A stretch of DNA of 64,000 bases, from the NCBI RefSeq assembly GCF_004310425.1, contig NZ_SIUB01000009.1:62001-126000 (forward strand), written 5' to 3'. This document shows positions 6,024-50,936 of this stretch, piece by piece (the stretch's first letter is position 1; each line of letters begins with the position of its first letter). The DNA is from Hansschlegelia quercus. GTDB taxonomy: Bacteria > Pseudomonadota > Alphaproteobacteria > Rhizobiales > Methylopilaceae. The notes beneath the pieces were generated by a model that saw only the letters and a list, made by a program, of their open reading frames with translations, did not search any database and was not told the DNA's origin. Both the position numbers and the translations under genes were made by a program.

Positions 6024-6427
<404 letters not shown>

Positions 6428-6846
6428 ATTTTGTTTTGGCTCGGCTCGGCTGCGTTTGCTCCTGCTCGGAGCATGAGGACCGCCTTGCGTCGCAGCGGGC
6501 GGGAAAGCCGGCCAGAGATCGATCATGAGCGGCTGATTTCGAGCCGCCGAAACGCCTTCTTAACCCTAAGGAAGTTCTACTCACCTCGTCGCGCTGGCCG
6601 CGAGGCGGCTCTTGTCAGGTTCTGCGTCCTGAGCCGCATCGCGGGCCGCGACGAAGTTAACGTGTCGTTGACGCCCATAGGGCCCCATGCTATCCCAAGC
6701 CATCCCGTCGAGACGGCTCAGCGACGGCTTCCAAACAGGATGCTGGTCCTCAGTTCCCGCGGTCTCTGAGGCCGCGGCGCTGCCTTTCGACGCCCGCTCT
6801 CTTGCGGGATCGGCCTCGGGGGGAGGCGGTCGGCAGGCGGGGGCGT
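6428..6846 (+). promoter_or_regulatory. Leader region between rnpB and mraZ
   Basis: These 419 bases hold no convincing gene. They carry the presumed dcw promoter (TTGACG at 6668-6673, 17-base spacer, TATCCC at 6691-6696) and the MraZ-type repeats listed separately. A TTAACCCTAA element is at 6560-6569 and a GTTAAC at 6656-6661, which resemble CtrA half-sites. The mRNA leader would be about 145 bases long. Confidence 0.55.
6674..6707 (-). promoter_or_regulatory. MraZ box: TGGG repeats at 10-bp spacing over the dcw promoter
   Basis: On the minus strand TGGG occurs at 6674-6677, 6684-6687 and 6694-6697, each start exactly 10 bases from the next, with a degenerate fourth copy (CGGG, 6704-6707) in the same phase. 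MraZ of E. coli is known to bind TGGG direct repeats with this 10-bp period. The array lies within the spacer and -10 element of the presumed mraZ promoter, a position that suits repression by MraZ of its own operon. Confidence 0.75.
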
Positions 6847-38458: not shown

Positions 38459-38708
38459 CAGCGTCGGTCACGGACAACCCATTGATTGGAAACGTTTTGC
38501 AATCGGAGCGACGGTATCTTGCGAAGCGGCATGCTGCGCATGCTAACAGCCTCTGTTAACACGATTTTCTTGCTCGGCGACGACTTGGAATAGTTTGACA
38601 TTGAAAGCAGGCGAGTCGTAGCCTCATACCCTGAAGCTGGCATGGAGCCGGTTGTCGAGCGCTTCGTCCGATGGAACGCGAGCGCCTATAGGGGAGGATG
38701 CATCCCTC
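38459..38708. promoter_or_regulatory. Divergent control region between tusA-like gene and formate dehydrogenase
   Basis: About 250 bases without a gene. A 15-base dyad TAACAG-CCT-CTGTTA lies at 38544-38558, preceded by two GCATGC copies (38529-38534 and 38538-38543). These are candidate binding sites for a regulator of formate or oxygen response. GGGGAGG at about 38691-38697 is a ribosome site for the dehydrogenase. No clear sigma-70 promoter could be placed with confidence. Confidence 0.5.
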
Positions 38709-41700
38709 ATGATCGGCGAATTTTCCCGCCGCCAGTTCCTTCGGACTGCGGGCGCAGGGATCGCCGGGACAACGCTCGGAGCGATGGGCTTTGGCGGCGC
38801 TGAACAAGCGCTCGCCCAGGCGGTGCGGCCCTTCAGGCTCGCCCAGACCACCGAGACCCGGAACACCTGCCCGTATTGCTCTGTCGCGTGCGGCATCATC
38901 ATGTACGGTCTCGGCGACCGTTCCAGGAACACCCAGGCGTCGCTCATCCATATCGAGGGCGACCCGGACCATCCGGTGAACCGAGGCACGCTTTGCCCCA
39001 AGGGCGCCGCGCTGCTCGACTTCGTGAAGGCCGACACGCGGCTGAAGCACCCGATGTACCGCAAGCCCGGCTCGGACAAGTTCGAGCGGGTGACGTGGGA
39101 CTTCGCGCTGGACCGCATCGCGCGCCTCATGAAGGACGACCGCGACGCGAACTTCATCGAGAAGAACAAGGACGGCGTAACCGTCAACCGCTGGACGACG
39201 ACGGGCTTCCTGGCGGCGTCCGCGACCACGAACGAAACGGCGACGCTGACCTACAAGGTGGTCCGCTCCGCCGGCATGCTGGTGTTCGACAACCAAGCGC
39301 GCGTCTGACACGGACCTACGGTGGCGAGTCTCGCCCCTACGTTCGGTCGCGGCGCCATGACGAACACATGGCAGGACATCAAGAACACCGACCTCGTCGT
39401 CGTCATGGGCGGCAACGCGGCGGAGGCGCATCCGTGCGGCTTCAAATGGGTGATCGAGGCGAAGGCCAATCGCGGCGCGAAGCTCGTGGTCGTCGACCCG
39501 CGCTATACGCGGACCGCGTCGGTCTCAGACTTCTACTGTCCGATCAGGCCGGGCACGGACATCGCCTTCCTCGGCGGCGTCATCAACTATCTGCTGGCGA
39601 ACGACAAAATTCAGCATGAGTACGTGAAGGCGTTCACCAACGCCTCCTACCTGATCAAGCCCGAGTTCGGCTGGAACGAGGGGCTGTTCACGGGCTACGA
39701 CGAGACCAAGCGCGGCTACGACACGTCGAGTTGGGACTATCAGCTGGGCGAGGACGGCTTCGCCAAGATCGACGACACGTTGCAGGACCCGCAATGCGTC
39801 TACCAGCTCATGAAGAAGCATTTCGCGGTCTACACGCCGGAGATGGTGGAGCGGATCTGCGGTTCGCCTAAGGACAAGTTCCTGAAGGTGGCCGAGATGA
39901 TGTCGGAGTGCTCCACCCCGACGAAGACCATGACGTCGCTCTACGCGCTTGGATGGACCCAACACTCCAAGGGCGCGCAGAACATCCGCGGCATGGCGAT
40001 GATCCAGCTCTTGCTGGGCAATATCGGCGTTCGCGGCGGCGGCATGCAGGCTCTGCGCGGCCACTCGAACATCCAGGGCCTGACCGACCTCGGCCTGATG
40101 TCCAACCTGATCCCCGGCTACCTTAACATGCCGACGGACAAGGAGAAGGACCTCGGGGCCTACATGTCGACCCGCGGCTTCAAGCCGCTGCGGCCGGGCC
40201 AAACCAGCTACTGGCAGAACTACAAGAAGTTTTTCGTCTCGTTCCAGAAGTCGATGTGGGGCGACGCCGCCAAGGTCGAGAACGACTGGGCCTATGACTG
40301 GCTGCCGAAGCTCGACGTCACCTACGACGTGCTGCGCGCCTTCGACCTGATGGCGAACGGCAAGATGAACGGGTACTTCTGCCAGGGGTTCAACCCGCTG
40401 ATGACCTTCCCGGACAGGGGCAAGATCACCAAGGCGCTGTCGAAGCTCAAATTCCTGGTGACGATGGACCCGCTGGAGACGGAGACCTCGCGCTTCTGGG
40501 AGAACCACGGCGAATATAACGAGGTTAAGTCGGCCGACATCCAGACCGAGGTGTTCCAGCTCCCGACGAGCTGCTTCGCCGAGGACGAGGGCTCGCTGGT
40601 TAATTCGAGCCGCTGGCTGCAGTGGCACTGGCCGGCGGTGAAGCCGCCGGGCGAGGCGAAGCTCGACACCGAGATCATGGCGCAGATCTATCTGCGGCTG
40701 AAGGCGATGTACCAGGAGGAGGGCGGCAAGCTCCCCGACCCGATCGTCAACCTGCGCTGGCCCTACGCCAATCCGGAGGACCCGACGCCTGAAGAGCTCG
40801 CGAAGGAGATGAACGGCGCCGCGCTCGCCGACGTCACCGATCCGACCGACCCGACCAAGATTCTTGTCGCTAAGGGCAAGCAGCTCGACACCTTCGCCCA
40901 GCTCAAGGACGACGGTTCGACCTTCTCGTTCTGCTGGATCTACGCCGGCTGCTTCACCGAGTCCGGCAACCAGATGGCGCGCCGCGACGTCTCCGATCCC
41001 GGGGACGCGGGCCTTGCGCCGAAATGGGCGTGGGCGTGGCCGGTCAACCGGCGCATCCTCTACAACCGCGCCTCGTCCGACGTGAACGGCAAGCCGTGGG
41101 ATCCCTCGCGCAAGCTCGTCTACTGGACGGGCGAGAAGTGGGGCGGGTTCGACGTGCCCGATTACGGTCCGACCATCAGGCCGGAACAGTCCGTCGGGCC
41201 GTTCATCATGAACCCGGAAGGGGTCGCGCGACTGTTCAGTCGCGGGATGATGCGCGACGGGCCGTTCCCGAGCCATTACGAGCCGTTCGAGTCGCCGGTC
41301 GCGAACGTCATCGCTCCGAAGATCCGCGGCAATCCCGCCGCGCGCATCTTCAAGGACGATCTCGTCGCGCTCGGAACGCCCGACAAATACCCGTACGTCG
41401 CGACGAGCTACCGCCTGACCGAGCACTTCCACCAGTGGACCAAGCATGTCTGGGTCAACGCGGTGCTGCAGCCCGAATTCTTCGTCGAGATCTCCGAGCA
41501 GCTCGCGAAGGAGAAGGGCATCGATAAGGGCGGCTGGGTCCGGGTCTGGTCGAACCGCGGCTCGGTGAAGGCCAAGGCCGTCGTCACGAAGCGCATCAAG
41601 CCGCTGATGGTCGACGGAAAGCCGGTTCACGTCGTCGGCATTCCCCAGCACTGGGGCTTCATGGGCAAGACGAAGAAGGGCTTTCACCCGAACTCGCTGA

Positions 41701-41792
41701 CCCCGTTCGTCGGCGATGCGAACATCGAGACGCCCGAATACAAGGCGTTCCTCGTCAACATCGAGGCGATCGCCTCGGGTCCCGTGGCGTGA
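38709..41792 (+). CDS. fdnG: Formate dehydrogenase-N/O alpha subunit, selenoprotein
   Basis: One gene of 1028 codons, read through an in-frame TGA (39306-39308) as selenocysteine at residue 200; a conventional caller splits it in two. It is the periplasmic catalytic subunit that oxidises formate to CO2 at a molybdenum or tungsten bis-MGD centre. A Tat signal (SRRQFLRTAGAGIAG) opens the protein; the first Fe-S cluster is bound by C54-x2-C57-x3-C61 (CPYCSVACG) and C96 (LCPKG). The segment around the UGA, ARV-Sec-HGPTVASLAPTFGRGAMTN, is the family active site. E. coli FdnG has Sec196 and 1015 residues. Symbol could equally be fdoG. Confidence 0.95.
39306..39350 (+). promoter_or_regulatory. UGA selenocysteine codon and bacterial SECIS-like hairpin
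   Basis: The UGA at 39306-39308 is followed by a hairpin with stem GGCGA (39323-39327), loop GTC and TCGCC (39331-39335), extended by GG/CC pairs past a T.C mismatch. Position (15 bases after the UGA) and apical GUCU resemble the E. coli fdhF/fdnG element, whose loop is recognised by SelB. The hairpin lies inside the coding sequence, as expected for bacteria. Confidence 0.8.
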
Positions 41793-41806: not shown

Positions 41807-42748
41807 ATGTCTAGCTACCAGTCCCTCGACATCAAGCGGCGCTCGGCGACGGAGTTCACGCCGCCGGCCATCCGCTCCACGGGCCTCGAGGTCGCCAAGC
41901 TCATCGACGTCTCGAAGTGCATCGGCTGCAAGGCCTGCCAGTCGGCATGCCTGGAGTGGAACAATTTGAAAGAGGACGTCGGCGTCAATGTCGGCGTCTA
42001 CGACAACCCGCACGACCTGACGCCGCACAGCTGGACGCTGATGCGGTTCAGCGAGTGGGACAATCCCGACACCGGGAACATGGAATGGCTGATCCGCAAG
42101 GACGGCTGCATGCACTGCGAGGATCCGGGCTGCCTCAAGGCGTGCCCGGCCCCCGGCGCGATCGTTCAGTACACGAACGGCATCGTCGACTTCATCTCGG
42201 AGAACTGCATCGGCTGCGCCTATTGCGTGAAGGGCTGCCCCTTCAACATCCCGCGCATCTCCGCCGTCGACCGCAAATCCTACAAATGCACGCTTTGCTC
42301 CGACCGTGTGGCGGTGGGGCAAGGGCCGGCCTGCGCCAAGGCCTGCCCGACGGCTGCGATCATGTTCGGCTCGAAGACGGACATGCAAGAACAGGCGGCG
42401 CGGCGCGTCGAGGACCTGAAGTCGCGCGGCTACGCCAATGCCGGCCTGTACGATCCGGCCGGCGTGGGCGGCACGCACGTGATGTACGTGCTGCACCACG
42501 CCGACAAGCCGGAAATCTACCACGGTCTCCCGAACGACCCGAAGATCAGCCCGCTCGTGAACGCCTGGAAGGGCGGGGCGAAGCTGCTCGCCCTCGGGGC
42601 GATCGCCTTCGCGGCGGTCGGGGCCTTCTTCCACCACACCGTGGTCGGCCCCAACAAGGTGTCGCCGACTGATGAGGAGAATGCGGCTGATCTGGTGGAG
42701 GAGGCCGAGAACGGCTCGCCTCAGCCCGAACCGACGAGGGCAGGCTGA
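41807..42748 (+). CDS. fdnH: Formate dehydrogenase-N/O iron-sulfur subunit beta
   Basis: A 313-residue electron-transfer subunit with four 4Fe-4S clusters. Cysteine motifs: [11 protein letters not shown] (about residue 38), [13 protein letters not shown] (about 100), [11 protein letters not shown] (about 135) and [20 protein letters not shown] (about 160). A single membrane segment near residue 262 anchors it in the inner membrane, after the catalytic subunit is exported. A strong GAGGGAGG site precedes the ATG; it overlaps the gamma-subunit start by one base. Confidence 0.94.
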
Positions 42749-43434
42749 TGGCGATCGACGTCGAACGCACCTCCGTCCGTCCGCTCGTCGAGCATACGGT
42801 GATCGACCGCTACCACGCCAAGGCGCGGGTGAACCACTGGGTGACGGCCATCACCTTCACCCTCCTCACTTTGAGCGGCCTCGCGCTCTTCCACCCCGGG
42901 CTCTACTGGCTCACCGCGTTCTTCGGCGGCGGGTCGGGCACGCGGGCGATCCATCCTTGGTTCGGCGTGGTGCTGCTGATGAGCTTCTCGCTGCTCTTCA
43001 TCCAGTTCTGGAAGCACAACTTCTGGAACCGTGACGACACGCAGTGGGTGAAGCAGATCGACGATGTCGTGAAGGGCGACGAGGAGCACTTGCCAGAACT
43101 CGACAAATACAACGCCGGCCAGAAGATCGTGTTCTGGCTGATGGCGCTGTTCATCCTGATCCTGTTCTGCACCGGCCTGGTGATCTGGGACCAGTACTTC
43201 CACGGAATCGTCACGATCGAGACCAACCGCTTGGCCGCGCTGGTGCACTCAGCGATCGCGATCTGCGCGATCCTGCTGCTGATCGTGCACGTCTATGCCG
43301 GTATCTGGGTGAAGGGCTCGGTGCGCAGCATGACGCAGGGCAACGTCACGGGCGGCTGGGCCTGGCGGCACCATCGCAAATGGCTGCGGCGCGAAGTCAG
43401 AGGCGCGGAGCCCGGCGGGAGCACCGAGGGTTGA
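42748..43434 (+). CDS. fdnI: Formate dehydrogenase cytochrome b556 gamma subunit
   Basis: A 228-residue membrane subunit with four membrane helices (about 30-52, 65-85, 130-150, 168-190) that binds two b-type haems and passes electrons to quinone. Histidines in ARVNHWVTAITF, the second helix region and LLLIVHVYAGIWVKGS fit the family's haem ligands. The last gene of the operon; a strong terminator stem begins six bases past its stop. With the alpha and beta subunits it forms a periplasm-facing formate:quinone oxidoreductase. Confidence 0.93.
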   Translation: MAIDVERTSVRPLVEHTVIDRYHAKARVNHWVTAITFTLLTLSGLALFHPGLYWLTAFFGGGSGTRAIHPWFGVVLLMSFSLLFIQFWKHNFWNRDDTQWVKQIDDVVKGDEEHLPELDKYNAGQKIVFWLMALFILILFCTGLVIWDQYFHGIVTIETNRLAALVHSAIAICAILLLIVHVYAGIWVKGSVRSMTQGNVTGGWAWRHHRKWLRREVRGAEPGGSTEG

Positions 43435-43743: not shown

Positions 43744-43952
43744 TTTGCGAAAACCGCATCGCGACGTTCAGAATTTCTTAGCACTCGCCTAAAGTAGCAC
43801 CTATCATTGATTCAACTGCGTTTTTCCTGAAATTCTTGCCTTCGATAGCCGCTGCCTGCCGCCGACCATTCATGATCCGCGGCGCCGCAGCCGCCGGACG
43901 AAGCGTGGCGTATCCGCGCACGCGCCAACGCGTTAAGCTTCCAACACATCGC

Positions 43953-44924
43953 ATGCGGAGCCGTCTCCTGGTCGATTTCTCGTCCATCTCGCCCCAGCCC
44001 GACATCATCGGCGGCGTATCGGAGCCCGACTTCGCGGTCGCCCCGAAGCCCGAAACGATGTTCGCCGTCCGGGCCATGCGCTTCCGCTCGCTCGCGGAAG
44101 GCCATCCGCTCGGCGATTATCTCAGCTTCCTCGGCCGGCTCTGTGATGCGCAGCACGCGATCCAGCAGGGCTTGGCGCTGCCCGAGAGTCCGGACGAAGC
44201 CGCGCTGGAGCGCTCGGCTGAATTCGGCATGCCCCCGGTCGATCGCGCCCGCATCGAGCTCGGCGCGCTGCTCGACGAGACCTTCCTGCGCCTGCTCGCC
44301 GACATGGAGACCGTCGCCGCGCCCGCGCAGACTATGGCGGCCCGCGCCCGGCTCGCGGCCGATCCGGCGCTTCGCCGGACGGTGCTCGCCGAAGCTCTGG
44401 AAAATTCCGCGTCGGTCGACGCGCTCGCCGAGCATGTCTTCGCCGCGGCGGCGCTGCAGGTTCATTTCGCACGACTCGCGGCCGCAGTCGGGGCTTCGCG
44501 GCTTGTTCCGGTCGGCGCGGGGGCCTGCCCGTGCTGCGGCGGCGCGCCGGTCTCGAGCCTGCTGGTCAGCTGGTCGGCCACCCACGGCTCACGCTACGTC
44601 GCCTGCGGCCTTTGCGGCACGCTCTGGAATCAGGTCCGCGTGCGCTGCGTGATCTGCGAGAGCACCAAGGGCATCGCCTATTACGCGCTGAGCGAAGAGG
44701 GCGAAGCGGTCGAAGCAAAGCCAGCGAAGCGGCGCGAGGACGAGGCGACCGCCAAGGCCGAAACGTGCGACGCCTGCAAGAGCTACCTCAAGATCTTCTA
44801 CCAGACGCTTGATCCGCAGGCGGATCCGGTCGCCGACGACGTCGCGACGCTTGGCCTCGACCTCAAGGTCCGGGAGGGCGGCTGGGGCCGCGCCGCTTTC
44901 AATCCCTTCCTTCTCGGCTATTGA
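43953..44924 (+). CDS. fdhE: Formate dehydrogenase accessory protein FdhE
   Basis: A 323-residue protein required to mature or stabilise respiratory formate dehydrogenases, known to bind the catalytic subunit. The rubredoxin-like zinc/iron sites are ACPCCGGAP (about residue 190), ACGLCGTLW (about 213), RCVICEST and CDACKSY. E. coli FdhE has 309 residues. The start at 43953 (MRSRLLVDF) is a guess; an upstream ATG at 43872 and TTG at 43836 would add N-terminal basic residues. Four-base overlap with the possible early selA start. Confidence 0.88.
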   Translation: MRSRLLVDFSSISPQPDIIGGVSEPDFAVAPKPETMFAVRAMRFRSLAEGHPLGDYLSFLGRLCDAQHAIQQGLALPESPDEAALERSAEFGMPPVDRARIELGALLDETFLRLLADMETVAAPAQTMAARARLAADPALRRTVLAEALENSASVDALAEHVFAAAALQVHFARLAAAVGASRLVPVGAGACPCCGGAPVSSLLVSWSATHGSRYVACGLCGTLWNQVRVRCVICESTKGIAYYALSEEGEAVEAKPAKRREDEATAKAETCDACKSYLKIFYQTLDPQADPVADDVATLGLDLKVREGGWGRAAFNPFLLGY

Positions 44925-44959
44925 TGGTTCCCACGCGTTTCCGCGAGGGCCGAGGAGCC

Positions 44960-46378
44960 GTGACCGACGCGAGCTTGATCGAGCGCAAGGCGCAGTTGCC
45001 GTCCGTCGACCGCGTGATGGCGACCGATGCCGCGCGGGTGGCCGCCGAGACCTATGGCCGGACCGCTGCGGTTGCGAGCGTCCGTGCGAGCCTCGATGAG
45101 ATTCGCCCGGCATGGCTCGCGGGCGCATCCGTTGATGTCGCGCCGGAGCGGATCGCGGCGGCCGCGACGCTTCGGCTCGAGGGCGCGGAGCAGCCCAGCC
45201 AGCGGCGCGTGATCAATCTCACCGGCACGGTGCTGCACACCAATCTCGGCCGCGCCCTCTTGGCGGAGGAGGCGATCGCCGCCGTCACCGCCGCGATGCG
45301 CAGCCCAACCGCGCTCGAGTTTAATATTGCGAGCGGGCAAAGGGGCGAGCGCGACGACCATGTGCGCGGTCTGCTGCGGGAACTTACCGGCGCGGAGGAT
45401 GCGGTCGTCATCAACAACAACGCTGCCGCCGTTCTACTAACGCTGAATTCGCTGAGTGAGGGGCGCGAGACCATCGTCTCGCGCGGCGAGTTGATCGAGA
45501 TCGGAGGCTCGTTCCGGCTGCCCTCCATCATGGCGCGCGCCGGCGCGAAGCTCGTCGAGGTCGGCACGACCAACCGCACCCATCTCTCGGACTATGCGGA
45601 AGCCGCCGGCCCCGACACCGCGCTGATGATGAAGGTGCATCCCTCGAACTACCGGATCGAGGGCTTCACCAAGGAGGTTTCCGCGCGCTCGCTTTCGCCA
45701 CTCGCGCGCGAAAAGGGCGTGCCGCTCGTCGACGATCTCGGCTCAGGCGTCCTGGTCGATCTCTCCAACCACGGCCTCGCCCGCGAACGCACGGTTCAGG
45801 AGGCGGTGGCCGACGGCGCGGACCTCGTCACATTTTCCGGCGACAAGCTGCTCGGCGGTCCGCAGGCTGGGCTCGTCGTCGGCCGGGCCGATCTCGTGAA
45901 GCGGCTCGCCAAAAATCACCTCAAGCGCGCGTTGCGCCTCGACAAGCTCCGCCTCGCCGCTCTCGAGGCCACTCTCAAGCTCTATCGTGACCCGGACCGG
46001 CTCGCCGGCCGCCTGCCGACGCTCGCTTTGCTGACGCGGCCGCCGGAAGCGCTGAAGGCGCAGGCCGCGCGGCTGCTGCCCGCGCTCGCGCGCGCCGTAG
46101 GCGCCGATTACGAAACGGCGGTCACGGACACGCGAAGCCAGATCGGCTCCGGCGCGCTGCCGCTGGAGACGATCCCGAGCGGCGGCTTCGCCATACGCGC
46201 GCTCTTGGGGGGATCGTCCGCGCTGATCGCGCTCGCAGCCGCGTTCCGGGCGCTGAGCGTTCCGGTCATCGGCCGCATCGCGGAGGATCGCCTGGTTCTA
46301 GACCTCCGCGCGCTTGATGACGAAGCGGTCTTCGTCGCGGCGCTCGACGAGATGACGCGCGCGAGGGCCGCGACTTGA
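44960..46378 (+). CDS. selA: L-seryl-tRNA(Sec) selenium transferase
   Basis: A 472-residue PLP-dependent enzyme that turns Ser-tRNA(Sec) into Sec-tRNA(Sec) using selenophosphate. N-terminal AQLPSVDRVM, GTVLHTNLGRALL, VINNNAAAVLLTL, VGTTNRTHLSDY, VDDLGSGVL and the PLP Lys296 in FSGDKLLGGPQAGL are present. The size matches E. coli SelA (463). I chose GTG 44960 because it gives MTDASL..., close to the E. coli N-terminus; an ATG at 44924 overlapping the fdhE stop is the alternative. Followed by a Sel1-repeat gene and selB. Confidence 0.93.
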   Translation: MTDASLIERKAQLPSVDRVMATDAARVAAETYGRTAAVASVRASLDEIRPAWLAGASVDVAPERIAAAATLRLEGAEQPSQRRVINLTGTVLHTNLGRALLAEEAIAAVTAAMRSPTALEFNIASGQRGERDDHVRGLLRELTGAEDAVVINNNAAAVLLTLNSLSEGRETIVSRGELIEIGGSFRLPSIMARAGAKLVEVGTTNRTHLSDYAEAAGPDTALMMKVHPSNYRIEGFTKEVSARSLSPLAREKGVPLVDDLGSGVLVDLSNHGLARERTVQEAVADGADLVTFSGDKLLGGPQAGLVVGRADLVKRLAKNHLKRALRLDKLRLAALEATLKLYRDPDRLAGRLPTLALLTRPPEALKAQAARLLPALARAVGADYETAVTDTRSQIGSGALPLETIPSGGFAIRALLGGSSALIALAAAFRALSVPVIGRIAEDRLVLDLRALDDEAVFVAALDEMTRARAAT

Positions 46379-47205
46379 GCTGGTTCGGCAAGTTCTTCGG
46401 CGACAAGCCGGAATCCGAGGAGGAGCAGGACGCGGCCGATGTCGAGGCGCTGCTCGATTCCGCCTATTCCGCCGCGGAGAGGGGAGACTACGAGAGCGCG
46501 ATCGCGATGTGGAGCGAACTTGCGGAAGCCGGCGTGCCGCGTGCGCAGAGCAATCTCGGCGCCTGCTATGCGGAAGGGTTCGGCGTCCTGCGCGACCTTG
46601 AGGTTGCCGCGTCGTGGTTCGCACGCGCGGCGGAGGCGGGCGACGCCGTCGGCCAGCGCAATCTGGCGGCGCTGCACTTCAAGGGCGAGGGCGGCGCGCA
46701 GCAGGATGACGCCACGGCCTACGCGCTCTACCTCGCGGCGGCGGAAGCTGGCGACGCGGCGGCGCAGGACATGCTGAGCTGGATGCTGTTGGAGGGGCAT
46801 GGCGTGGAGCCCGATCCCATCGAATCCCGCCGCTGGGCGCTCGCCGCCGCCGAACGGGAGGTCGCGACTTCGATGACGCGGCTCGGCCTGATCGCGCACA
46901 ACGCGCTCGGCATGGAGCGCGACCCGGAGGAAGCCGCGCGCTGGTGGTACGAGGCGGCGCGCCGGGGCGATCCAGACGGTCAGGCGATGCTCGGCGCGGC
47001 GCTGCATATGGGCGGAGGCGTCGAGAAGGACGACCGCGCCGCGCTCGTCTGGCTCACGCGCGCGGAGGATGGCGGCAGCCTGCTCTCCGCGCCGTTCCTC
47101 GGCGCCGTCAGGGGCGCGCTCGACGAAGAGCAGATCGCCCAGGCCGAGGCGATTGCCCGCAAGCCTCTGGTCGAGGAGGCTGAGGAGCCGGGAGCCGCGC
47201 AGTGA
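46375..47205 (+). CDS. Sel1-repeat (TPR-like) protein
   Basis: A 276-residue protein with at least six Sel1-like repeats (for example ARAQSNLGACYAEGFGV, GDAVGQRNLAALHFKGEG, ALGMERDPEEAARWWYEAA), each 36-38 residues long, after a short hydrophobic and charged start (MSWFGKFFG). No signal peptide. It lies between selA and selB with overlaps at both ends (TTG over the selA stop; GTG of selB over its stop), so it is co-translated with the selenocysteine machinery. Its role is unknown; it may scaffold, or be a passenger. The name Sel1 has no link with selenium. Confidence 0.85.
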   Translation: MSWFGKFFGDKPESEEEQDAADVEALLDSAYSAAERGDYESAIAMWSELAEAGVPRAQSNLGACYAEGFGVLRDLEVAASWFARAAEAGDAVGQRNLAALHFKGEGGAQQDDATAYALYLAAAEAGDAAAQDMLSWMLLEGHGVEPDPIESRRWALAAAEREVATSMTRLGLIAHNALGMERDPEEAARWWYEAARRGDPDGQAMLGAALHMGGGVEKDDRAALVWLTRAEDGGSLLSAPFLGAVRGALDEEQIAQAEAIARKPLVEEAEEPGAAQ

Positions 47206-49160
47206 TCGTCGGCACGGCCGGCCACATCGATCACGGCAAGTCGGCGCTGGTGCGCCGGTTGACGGGGGTCGATCCGGACCGGCTCAAGGAAGAGAAGGCC
47301 CGCGGCGTCTCGATCGACCTCGGCTTCGCCTACCTCCCCCGGCCGGACGGCGCGACGCTGGGCTTCGTCGACGTGCCCGGGCACGAGCGGTTCGTCCGCC
47401 ACATGCTGGCCGGCGCGAGCGCGATCGACTTCGTGCTGCTCGTCGTCGCGGCGGATGACGGGCCGATGCCGCAGACCCGCGAACATCTCGCGATTCTCGA
47501 CATGCTGGGCGTCTCCCGCGGGCTCGTGGTGATGACGAAGAGCGATCTCGCCGACGCCGAGCGCCGCGCCACCGTCGAGGCCGAGATCTCGGAGCTGACG
47601 CGCGGCGCCGCGCTCGAAGGCGCCGACGTGCTGCCGTTCTCCTCGATTACGGGGGAAGGCGAGGGCGAACTGCTCGAACGGCTCGACGCCGAGCGCGCCC
47701 GGTTCATCCGCCCTGCGCAGACCGGCCGTTTCCGGCTCGCCATCGATCGCTGCTTCACGCTCACCGGCGCCGGCGTTGTGGTCACTGGCGCCGTGCGCGA
47801 CGGCGTGGTGCGGGTCGGCGATCAGATCGTGGTCTCGCCCTCAGGAATCACGGCGCGAGTGCGCGGCATCCATGCCCAGAATCGGCCGGCGGAGGAGGGC
47901 CGTCCCGGCGAGCGCTGCGCGCTGAATCTCGCCGGACCCGGCGTCTCGAAGGAGGCGATCCGGCGCGGCGACGTGGCGCTCGATCCTCATCTGCACGCGC
48001 CGACGGACAGGATCGACGTCGAGCTCCGGGTGCTCGCCTCCGAACCGAAGGCCCTCGCCGCTTGGGCGCCGCTGCGGCTGCATTGCGGCTCTGCCGAGCT
48101 CGCCGCCCGGCTGGTCCCGATCGAAGGCGATGCGATCAGGCCGGGCGAGATGGCGCGCGCGCAGCTCGTGCTGGAAAAGCCGATCGCGGCAGTCGCGCTC
48201 GATCGTTTCGTCCTTCGCGATGGAGCCGGGGGCCGCACCATTGCGGGCGGCCGCATCCTCGATCTGCGCGCTCCTGCGCGAAAGCGCCGGTCGCCGGAGC
48301 GGCGCGCCCAGCTCGATGCGCTGGCGATCTCCGATCATGGCGAGGCGTTGCGGGCCTTAATGGCCGTGCCGCCTCACGCGGTCGAGCTCGACGCCTTCTT
48401 CCGCGACCGCAACGTCGCGCCGGATGCGCAAGGGGCGATCGTCGCCAGGCTCGGCCTCGTTCGCCTTGCTCGGGGAACTGCGGCGCTCAGCGCCGCGACC
48501 TGGGCGGCGTTCGGCCAAGCCATCGCCGCCGCGCTCGCCCTCCACCATGCCGAAAACCCGGACCTGCAGGGGATCGGCGCGGAGCGGCTGCGGCTCTCGA
48601 TCGAGCCCGTGCTGCCGGGCCGTGTGTTCCTCGCAGGCCTCGCGACCCTGCAGAAATCCGGCGCGATCGCGGTCGAGGGCGCGTGGATAAGGCTGCCCGG
48701 CCACGAGGCGCGGCTTGCGGAGGGTGATGAGGCGCTGTGGGCTGACATCGCGCCGCGGCTCGGCGGCGAAACCCGCTTCCGCCCGCCGCGCGTGCGCGAC
48801 CTCGCGACCGAGACCGGAGAGGATGAGGCTGACGTTCGCCGCGTCCTCAAGCTGCTCGGCCGTCTTGGCCGGGTCGACGAGATCGCCCACGACCATTTTT
48901 TCCTGCGCGAGGTGACCGCCGAGATGGTCGCCACCGCCGAAGACGCCGCGCTCGCGGATCCCGGCGCCGTGGTGACGGCCGCGCGCTTCCGCGACAGGCT
49001 GGACAACGGTCGCAAGGTGGCGATCCAGATCCTCGAATTCTTCGACCGCCACGGCGTCACCATCCGGCGCGGCGACGAGCGGCGCATGAACAAAGCGAGG
49101 CGCAACCTCTTCCGCCGCGCCGACGTCACGGCGGGGATCGGCGCCGAGGAGGACGCTTGA
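47202..49160 (+). CDS. selB: Selenocysteine-specific elongation factor
   Basis: A 652-residue GTPase that brings Sec-tRNA to the UGA by binding the SECIS hairpin. G1 [13 protein letters not shown], the Sec-type [12 protein letters not shown]3 [10 protein letters not shown]4 TKSDLAD, then two beta-barrel domains and four C-terminal winged helices (WHTH domains; last segment [16 protein letters not shown]) that bind SECIS RNA. E. coli SelB has 614 residues. GTG start overlaps the Sel1-repeat stop. A long inverted repeat follows 20 bases after the end. Confidence 0.95.
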
Positions 49161-49180
49161 TAGGTGCGACGATACGTGAT

Positions 49181-49286
49181 GCGTGCTTCGAGACGCTCGT
49201 AAACGCGGGCTCCACAGCATGAGGAGCGTTTGAGCCATCTCAACCCTCCTCTGCTGAGGAACGCGCAGGCGCGTCTCGAAGCACGC
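49181..49286. repeat. Long intergenic inverted repeat after selB (CTTCGAGACGC type)
   Basis: A perfect 16-base arm GCGTGCTTCGAGACGC (49181-49196) is matched by its complement at 49271-49286. Inner arms TCCACAGCATGAGGAG (49210-49225) and CTCCTCTGCTGAGGA (49246-49260) pair with few mismatches. The whole 106 bases can form one extended hairpin. This kind of repeat, with a CTTCGAGACGC end and a CAGCATGAGGA inner part, is familiar in intergenic DNA of Hyphomicrobiales. It is not a tRNA-Sec gene. Confidence 0.82.
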
Positions 49287-49305
49287 AGCACCTGTGAGAG
49301 CCGTC

Positions 49306-49695
49306 TTGGCGAGCACTGAAGAATTTCACTTCGACGGTTGGCTGAAGGCGGCCTTCGCGGAGACTGGCGCGTTCACCGCCTTGGTTGTCCTCGTCGATAT
49401 CGGCAGGAAGGACGCGACCCCCGTCGCCTCCACCTTCTTCCACGTCATTGGGGACGAGGCCGACTGGGCGGAGATGAGCCGCCTGTTCGCAGGCGCGCCG
49501 AACCGATGGAACGGCGCGGCCTTCTTTGCCGAGACCGCGCGGGACGGCGGGCCGCTCGACGAGCCGCTCGCCCGCATCGAGCTCCGCCGCGTCGAGCAGA
49601 TGATCGACGACGACCGGATGGCGCTGAACGAGGCTGCGTTCTTCAACCGTAAAGGCCAGCGTCTACGGATCGACGAAGATGGAGACAGCGCGTGA
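49306..49695 (+). CDS. Conserved hypothetical protein between selB and moeA
   Basis: A 129-residue soluble protein with one long beta/alpha domain: ASTEEFHFDGWLKAAFAETGAF, a hydrophobic VVLVDIG strand, FFHVIGDEADWAEMSRLF, and a C-terminal half with RIELRRVEQMIDDDRMALNEAAF. No Cys pair or known motif. A TTG at 49306 follows GAGAG; a GTG at 49294 is an alternative. It overlaps moeA by four bases, so it is probably expressed with it and belongs to the selenium/molybdenum group by position. Confidence 0.65.
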   Translation: MASTEEFHFDGWLKAAFAETGAFTALVVLVDIGRKDATPVASTFFHVIGDEADWAEMSRLFAGAPNRWNGAAFFAETARDGGPLDEPLARIELRRVEQMIDDDRMALNEAAFFNRKGQRLRIDEDGDSA

Positions 49696-50936
49696 GCGTT
49701 CTCGCCCGCGACCTCTGCGCCGACCCTGCGCTGCTGTCGATCGCCGCCGCGCAGGAGCAGGCGGCGGTGCTCGTGGCGGGTCCCGTCGAGGACGAGCTTG
49801 TTCCCCTTCGGGAGCTCGCGGGACGCGTCTCGTCCGAGTCGGTCGCCACGCCAACCCCTCTGCCGCCCTTCGACCACTCCGCCATGGACGGATATGCGCT
49901 CGCTGGTCTCGGGCGCAGCCATGTGGTGCGAGCGCGGCTCGCCGCCGGGGCGGAGGAGACGCCGACGCTGGTTCCAGGCGAAGCTGCGCGCATTCTCACC
50001 GGCGCGCCGATGCCGGCGGGCGCGATCGCTGTCGTCATGCAAGAGCGGGTGCGGCGCGAAGGCGACCGGATCACCCTCGAGGCGGATGTCGAGGCCGGCG
50101 CCAACATCCGTCGGCGCGGCGAGGACGTCGCTGCAGGCGAAGTCATCGTCCCCGCCGCCGTGCGGCTTGACGCGCGCCACATTGCGATATTGGCCGCGGC
50201 CGGCGTCACCCAGGCGCGTGTCCGGCGACGTGTCCGGATTGGCGTGCTTTCGACCGGCGACGAACTCGCGCGTCCTGGCGAGCCGCTGACGCCCGGCCGC
50301 ATTCACGACGCCAACCGGCCGATGCTGATGGCGATCCTCAATCGACCGAGCCACGAGATCGTCGATCTCGGCGTCGCGCCGGACGAACCCGCGGCGCTGC
50401 GGCGTCTGCTGCTCGACGCCGCTGCCCGCTGCGACGCGATCGTCACCTCCGGCGCGACCTCGGTTGGCGACGAGGACCATCTCGCCGCCGCGGTGTTTGC
50501 CGGCGGCGGTAGGCTGGAGCTCGCTCGTGTCGCTCTGAAGCCGGGCAAGCCGGTCGTCGCGGGAACGCTGAGGGGCGCGGTGCTGATCGGTTTGCCGGGC
50601 AATCCGTTCGCCGCGCTCGTCGCCCATGTCCTTGTCGGCCGCGTCGCGCTGGAGCGGCTCGCCGGACTGGCGCCGAAGCCGCTCCGACCGCTGCCGGCCT
50701 CCGCAGGCTTTTCGCAGAAGGGCCCGGGCGGCCGGACCGAGTTCGCGCCGGCGGCTTTGCGCGGCGTCGATGAGCGGGGGCTCATGGTGGTCGAGAAGCT
50801 TGGCCGCGGCGGCTCGGCGCGGCTCGCCCCCCTCATCGCTGCCGACGGGCTCGCGGTCATTCCCGCTGGCCGGGCCGATATCCGCATCGGCGATCCGATC
50901 GGGTTCCTGCCTTTCGAAGCCGCGGCCGAGCTCTAA
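49692..50936 (+). CDS. moeA: Molybdopterin molybdenumtransferase
   Basis: A 414-residue MoeA/GEPH-E protein inserting molybdate into molybdopterin, the last step before MGD formation. Motifs: PFDHSAMDGYAL, ILTGAPMPAGAIAVVMQE, RIGVLSTGDELA, ILSNRPSHE-like region, VTSGATSVGDEDH and IGLPGNPFAALV. The GTG start overlaps the upstream gene stop. Complements moaA (33365) in making cofactor for the dehydrogenase. A C-terminal domain IV of about 70 residues completes it. Confidence 0.94.
   Translation: MSVLARDLCADPALLSIAAAQEQAAVLVAGPVEDELVPLRELAGRVSSESVATPTPLPPFDHSAMDGYALAGLGRSHVVRARLAAGAEETPTLVPGEAARILTGAPMPAGAIAVVMQERVRREGDRITLEADVEAGANIRRRGEDVAAGEVIVPAAVRLDARHIAILAAAGVTQARVRRRVRIGVLSTGDELARPGEPLTPGRIHDANRPMLMAILNRPSHEIVDLGVAPDEPAALRRLLLDAAARCDAIVTSGATSVGDEDHLAAAVFAGGGRLELARVALKPGKPVVAGTLRGAVLIGLPGNPFAALVAHVLVGRVALERLAGLAPKPLRPLPASAGFSQKGPGGRTEFAPAALRGVDERGLMVVEKLGRGGSARLAPLIAADGLAVIPAGRADIRIGDPIGFLPFEAAAEL

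Follow-up and report, generated by a model that had tools for sequence, protein, structure and literature searches.

Organisation of the formate dehydrogenase locus

In the window, by which we mean the whole 64,000-nucleotide stretch of DNA that was analysed, the plus strand carries at 38709-41792 the frame of a formate dehydrogenase-N/O alpha subunit (fdnG/fdoG, hereafter fdnG), which runs from an ATG at 38709 to a final TGA at 41790-41792 and contains one internal stop only, the TGA at 39306-39308. Under translation table 11, this codon splits the frame into ORF 1 at 38652-39308 (TTG start, 218 aa; 199 codons when counted from the ATG) and ORF 2 at 39321-41792 (GTG start, 823 aa), both being in the same reading frame. 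The first-pass annotation had described two same-frame ORFs meeting at this TGA and a joined product of 1027 residues with the TGA at position 200; its coordinates proved exact and the joined protein was reproduced by translation, confirming the split frame with its internal TGA as a real observation. By eye, AGGGGAGGA at 38690-38698 was picked out as a putative ribosome-binding site 10 nt 5' of the ATG, and a twin-arginine motif, SRRQFLRT, is located close to the N-terminus of the protein.

Downstream on the same strand, fdnG is followed by fdnH for the iron-sulfur beta subunit at 41807-42748 (TIGR01582, 460.7 bits; cut-off 334.7), fdnI for the cytochrome b gamma subunit at 42748-43434 (TIGR01583, 185.4 bits; cut-off 115.85) and fdhE for a formate dehydrogenase accessory protein at 43836-44924, as counted from the mechanical ORF start (TIGR01562, 257.3 bits; cut-off 187.65). 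The nearby selA and selB genes that had been reported for this region were both recovered directly downstream, with selA for L-seryl-tRNA(Sec) selenium transferase at 44921-46378 (TIGR00474, 569.8 bits; cut-off 267.9) and selB for the selenocysteine-specific elongation factor at 47202-49160 (TIGR00475, 383.4 bits; cut-off 242.25). Between them, at 46375-47205, lies a gene for a Sel1-repeat protein (PF08238, 114.2 bits in five stretches), and the ORFs of fdhE, selA, the Sel1-repeat protein and selB overlap successively by 4 bases. A Sel1-repeat ORF in this position was also seen in 41 of the 67 named relatives having both selA and selB. Further downstream, a MoeA-like gene at 49692-50936 scored below the curated cut-offs of all families that it matched.

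Identity of the alpha subunit

The joined FdnG translation matched TIGR01553 (formate dehydrogenase-N alpha) with 1442.6 bits, i.e., 628 bits above the cut-off of 814.2, the match covering residues 5-1019 and profile positions 2-1008 of 1009. Alignment to the FdnG family, which had been proposed as a check, revealed FdnG of E. coli (chain 1kqf_A) as the best solved relative with an E-value of 0 over residues 5-1019. In this alignment, residue 200 lies opposite an X that is followed by His in the context ARV-X-HGPT; we take the X in 1kqf_A to be selenocysteine, and further matched solved chains carry selenocysteine-containing names. This agrees with the assignment of the ARV/HGPT context to the catalytic site of the FDH-N/O alpha subunit. 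Also aligned with 1kqf_A were Cys54, Cys57, Cys61 and Cys96, presumably the iron-sulfur cysteines, His201 directly after the selenocysteine position, Arg450, presumably an active-site residue, and Arg7-Arg8, which we take to be the twin-arginine motif. Full-length score, key residues and adjoining beta and gamma subunit genes agree in placing the protein in the TIGR01553 family.

SECIS element at the internal TGA

A SECIS element, comprising an apical stem-loop with AGUCU, was predicted at 39303-39361 on the plus strand with the Rfam family RF01989 (SECIS_3; 78.6 bits, gathering score 63, E 7e-17), so that the in-frame UGA has a SECIS element immediately on its 3' side. Across the genome of 3.58 Mb, a search that used the SECIS_3 family alone and scored 150 of 1868 first-look candidates reported no other match. 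Taken by itself, the 59-nt element did not have an exceptional folding energy (z -1.17; 27 of 200 shuffles folded equally well) and, this measure giving no strong signal, the assessment relied on the covariance model and on pair counts.

Pair counts were obtained from 81 aligned sequences, 56 of them distinct, and compared with 500 shuffles, a comparison that yields no true probabilities because the sequences are related to one another and their structure was taken from the Rfam consensus. For three of the five measures, namely the proportion of cells paired (91.8%), the cells changed on both sides (48) and the covariation score (0.192), the observed value was above that of every shuffle. Pairs changed on both sides and further pair types were not clearly above the shuffles, of which 286/500 and 60/500, respectively, scored at least as high. 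Helix 2 was paired in 100% of the lettered cells with both-side changes in three of its seven pairs, and the lower helix, paired in 85.5% of the cells, received weaker support; covariation support for the predicted element is carried by helix 2. Columns 24 and 30 hold C-G in 40 distinct rows and G-C in 16. Since these columns join codon 206 to codon 208 at their third positions, the pair can be swapped without protein change in the Ala206 form. At columns 22 and 32, a change from G-C to U-G is accompanied by a change of the protein from VASLA to VSSLG.

Selenocysteine machinery in the genome

Outside the window, a tRNA-SeC gene (selC) with anticodon TCA was called by ARAGORN on contig 7 (L009), and selD was found on contig 15 with 428.3 bits. 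Three matches to the Rfam tRNA-Sec family exceeded the cut-off, the best being the tRNA-SeC and the other two being tRNA-Ser according to ARAGORN. The genome also encodes the formate dehydrogenase accessory protein FdhD (203.2 bits). Absence of selC and selD elsewhere in the genome had been named as an observation that would speak against selenocysteine; with the tRNA-SeC on contig 7 and selD on contig 15, this objection is excluded, and selA, selB, selC and selD are all present.

This gene set also bears on a reading in which a non-canonical tRNA inserts Cys or some other residue at the UGA. UGA recoding of this kind is reportedly described in work that PMC8124441 cites (Vargas-Rodriguez 2018); here, selA, selD and a tRNA-Sec whose anticodon is TCA all occur, and since cysteine decoding would presumably need neither selA nor selD, their presence speaks against it and makes such a tRNA a very improbable explanation.

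Conservation of the TGA codon in relatives

Scanning of named genomes yielded 233 confirmed relatives, of which the best, i.e., the closest, 80 were analysed; the nearest named organisms belonged to Methylopila and Hansschlegelia. The scan did not select for TGA, as none of its six peptide patterns spans residue 200. Among these best 80 of 233, codon 200 was TGA in every case, the aligned region contained exactly one stop in every case, and Cys54, Cys57, Cys61, Cys96, Lys98, His201, Arg450 and Arg7-Arg8 were unchanged throughout, with residue 6 being Ser in 76 of the 80. A Cys codon in close relatives, put forward earlier as a possible refutation, was found at residue 200 in none of the 80 closest of the 233 named relatives.

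Across all loci L022-L114 (n = 93), TGA was read in 91, which are not independent because L022-L030 probably include species recurring among the named loci. For L033 and L034, both pieces of the fragmented genome G007, no codon was obtained, one TGA being listed inside the L034 match. In G007 (88% complete; L032-L034), fdnG occurs in three pieces at two places, with TGA in two of the pieces, reflecting either a poor assembly or two copies.

With author-set thresholds (E up to 1e-250 for fdnG, 1e-60 for selB and 1e-11 for tRNA-Sec), fdnG was detected in 12 of the 61 genomes searched, the window's own included. Among the 18 closest genomes, a single set of 12 had fdnG, selB and tRNA-Sec together and the other six lacked all three, and ARAGORN called a tRNA-SeC in all 12 genomes holding fdnG.

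These data can be set against a pseudogene or sequencing error, in which translation would really end at the TGA or the codon would have been misread, the enzyme being dead or carrying another residue there. Table 11 does end the frame at 39308. Against this stand the retention of TGA, with no other stop in the aligned region, in all of the best 80 of 233 relatives, the location of the SECIS element at this very codon and the conservation of the half after the TGA including Arg450, leaving this reading with a minimal probability. Equally improbable is separate translation of two proteins with a second start at GTG 39321, where the mechanical ORF indeed begins. This GTG lies within the SECIS element and is the codon of Val205, for which the best 80 of 233 relatives have GTG in 72, GTA in four and GTC in four; with GTA or GTC in eight of 80, it is not an obligatory start, which speaks against the independent second ORF start envisaged as a counter-argument. 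Moreover, splitting would leave the iron-sulfur cysteines on the N-terminal piece and the bulk of the remainder on the C-terminal one; the solved chains matched by FdnG are each single (1kqf_A with 1015 residues; 8cm4_A with 1013). Conservation, the SECIS element and the complete sel gene set led us to reject the pseudogene, read-error, two-protein and cysteine-decoding readings as very improbable.

Interpretation of the locus

The split frame is beyond chance, since the joined protein aligns with FdnG, SECIS_3 matches over the TGA and the codon is kept in the analysed relatives. We conclude that the locus is almost certainly an FdnG/FdoG-type respiratory operon (fdnGHI-fdhE) with selA and selB, in which, by analogy with E. 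coli, the UGA at 39306-39308 would be decoded as Sec200. The SECIS element, the full sel gene set, the TGA conservation and the FdnG alignment all support the earlier proposal of a UGA read as selenocysteine, and we strongly infer this residue at position 200.

Established knowledge of the E. coli family suggests how the system would operate. SelA would make Sec-tRNA(Sec) using selenophosphate from SelD; SelB would bind Sec-tRNA(Sec) and the SECIS hairpin at the UGA, whereupon the ribosome would insert Sec200. In the enzyme, Sec200, adjoining His201, would help to coordinate the molybdenum or tungsten ion. The protein would be exported via the Tat pathway, and electrons taken from formate would travel via FdnH and then the cytochrome b subunit FdnI into the quinone pool. 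For the present organism, as a relative of Methylopila and Hansschlegelia, oxidising formate would be a natural way to gain energy. For annotation, the locus offers exact Sec and SECIS coordinates of an intact-looking selenoprotein gene that plain ORF calling splits.

Comparison with known systems

The likeness to E. coli FdnG (FDH-N alpha, PDB 1kqf) extends, with an E-value of 0, over query residues 5-1019 and includes the X (Sec) at the same position; a SECIS_3 match was also obtained in the E. coli control genome, and here the beta and gamma subunit genes follow fdnG. The loci differ in that selA and selB are directly downstream of the formate dehydrogenase genes here, whereas in E. coli, as far as we are aware, they are located away from them.

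Closer parallels exist in Alphaproteobacteria. PMC8124441 describes an fdoGHI-selABCD cluster on pSymA of S. meliloti and in others, with selC nested in selB and, in Methylopila, a stop before selC. The present locus resembles this cluster in having fdo/fdn GHI followed downstream by selA and selB, and the copies on S. meliloti plasmids share about 72% identity with the query across 99% of its length; it differs in that selC and selD are found on other contigs. Parting of the sel genes as such is not new, given that the same paper reports selAB and selCD of S. meliloti to be separated by a transposon. According to PMC1794560, members of the Alphaproteobacteria that decode Sec possess a selA-selB-selC operon, next to which fdhA encodes their sole selenoprotein, and Sec-to-Cys changes do occur across the FdhA family at large; PMC1242214 lists a formate dehydrogenase for one species. 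Measured against these papers, a Sec-decoding fdnG with a readthrough UGA is already well known and ordinary, nothing here going beyond the published descriptions: the gene encodes the selenoprotein that Sec-decoding Alphaproteobacteria usually have, in this instance in an organism related to Methylopila and Hansschlegelia.

Of 148 plasmid records covering at least 80% of the query, codon 200 was read in one, the Phyllobacterium zundukense plasmid NZ_CP104969.1. Its cluster consists of fdnG, fdxH, the gamma subunit gene, fdhE and selA, matches the query with 75.5% identity over 100% of its length, has the same gene order through selA and carries TGA at the same fdnG codon; unlike in the present genome, selD is nearby on the same plasmid. 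On this record, fdnG is annotated as one full-length CDS across the TGA, and the first-pass annotation was too general in expecting two fragments or a pseudogene from automatic annotation. Of the 15 plasmid records listed, two showed fdnG at the match and 11 showed no fdnG there, annotation being absent in two; the plasmid gene table describes itself as incomplete, so that an entry of 'none' says little.

Position of selC and a repeat downstream of selB

Among 69 named selB loci, some of which are cut by contig ends, tRNA-Sec was present in 64, and in 63 its start lies anywhere from 9 bases short of the selB match end to 248 bases past it. In the window's genome, selC does not adjoin selB, a point that counts against the selenocysteine reading, and no tRNA was found in 49161-49293, 3' of selB. 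The tRNA-Sec is off its usual post-selB place in six of the 12 close system-bearing genomes, mostly at unlike sites (L009; L133-L137). It lies away from selB in G000, G001, G007, G008, G010 and G012 with a matched stretch of 94 bases, and beside selB in G003, G004, G006, G009, G011 and G017 with a matched stretch of 92 bases. When some 1.5 kb of flanking DNA on each side of the relocated selC genes was compared, long shared DNA was seen in G008/G010 alone, on one side; in the other pairs, the match extended no more than some 30 bases beyond the tRNA.

A tentative reading, which we regard as possible rather than probable, is that the Sec machinery is undergoing rearrangement in the genus, at least six genomes carrying selC outside the operon, mostly in unlike places. 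The literature searches, which were aimed at other questions and covered listings and the papers cited here, returned no report of a selC move in this genus. For clusters with selC inside selB, PMC8124441 proposes alternative expression of selB and tRNA-Sec; if the relocation reading were true, selB and tRNA-Sec would be separately controlled units.

At 49176-49291 of the window, an inverted repeat whose 21-nt arms are separated by 74 nt belongs to a dispersed family, its 14-base core having 37 copies in the genome versus one for the reversed control. This repeat may have replaced selC 3' of selB in the window's genome. It does not explain the selC move generally, as the core is absent from the selB loci of the five other genomes with relocated selC. 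Elsewhere in the window, an RNase P RNA of class A was located at 6026-6429 with 316.6 bits.
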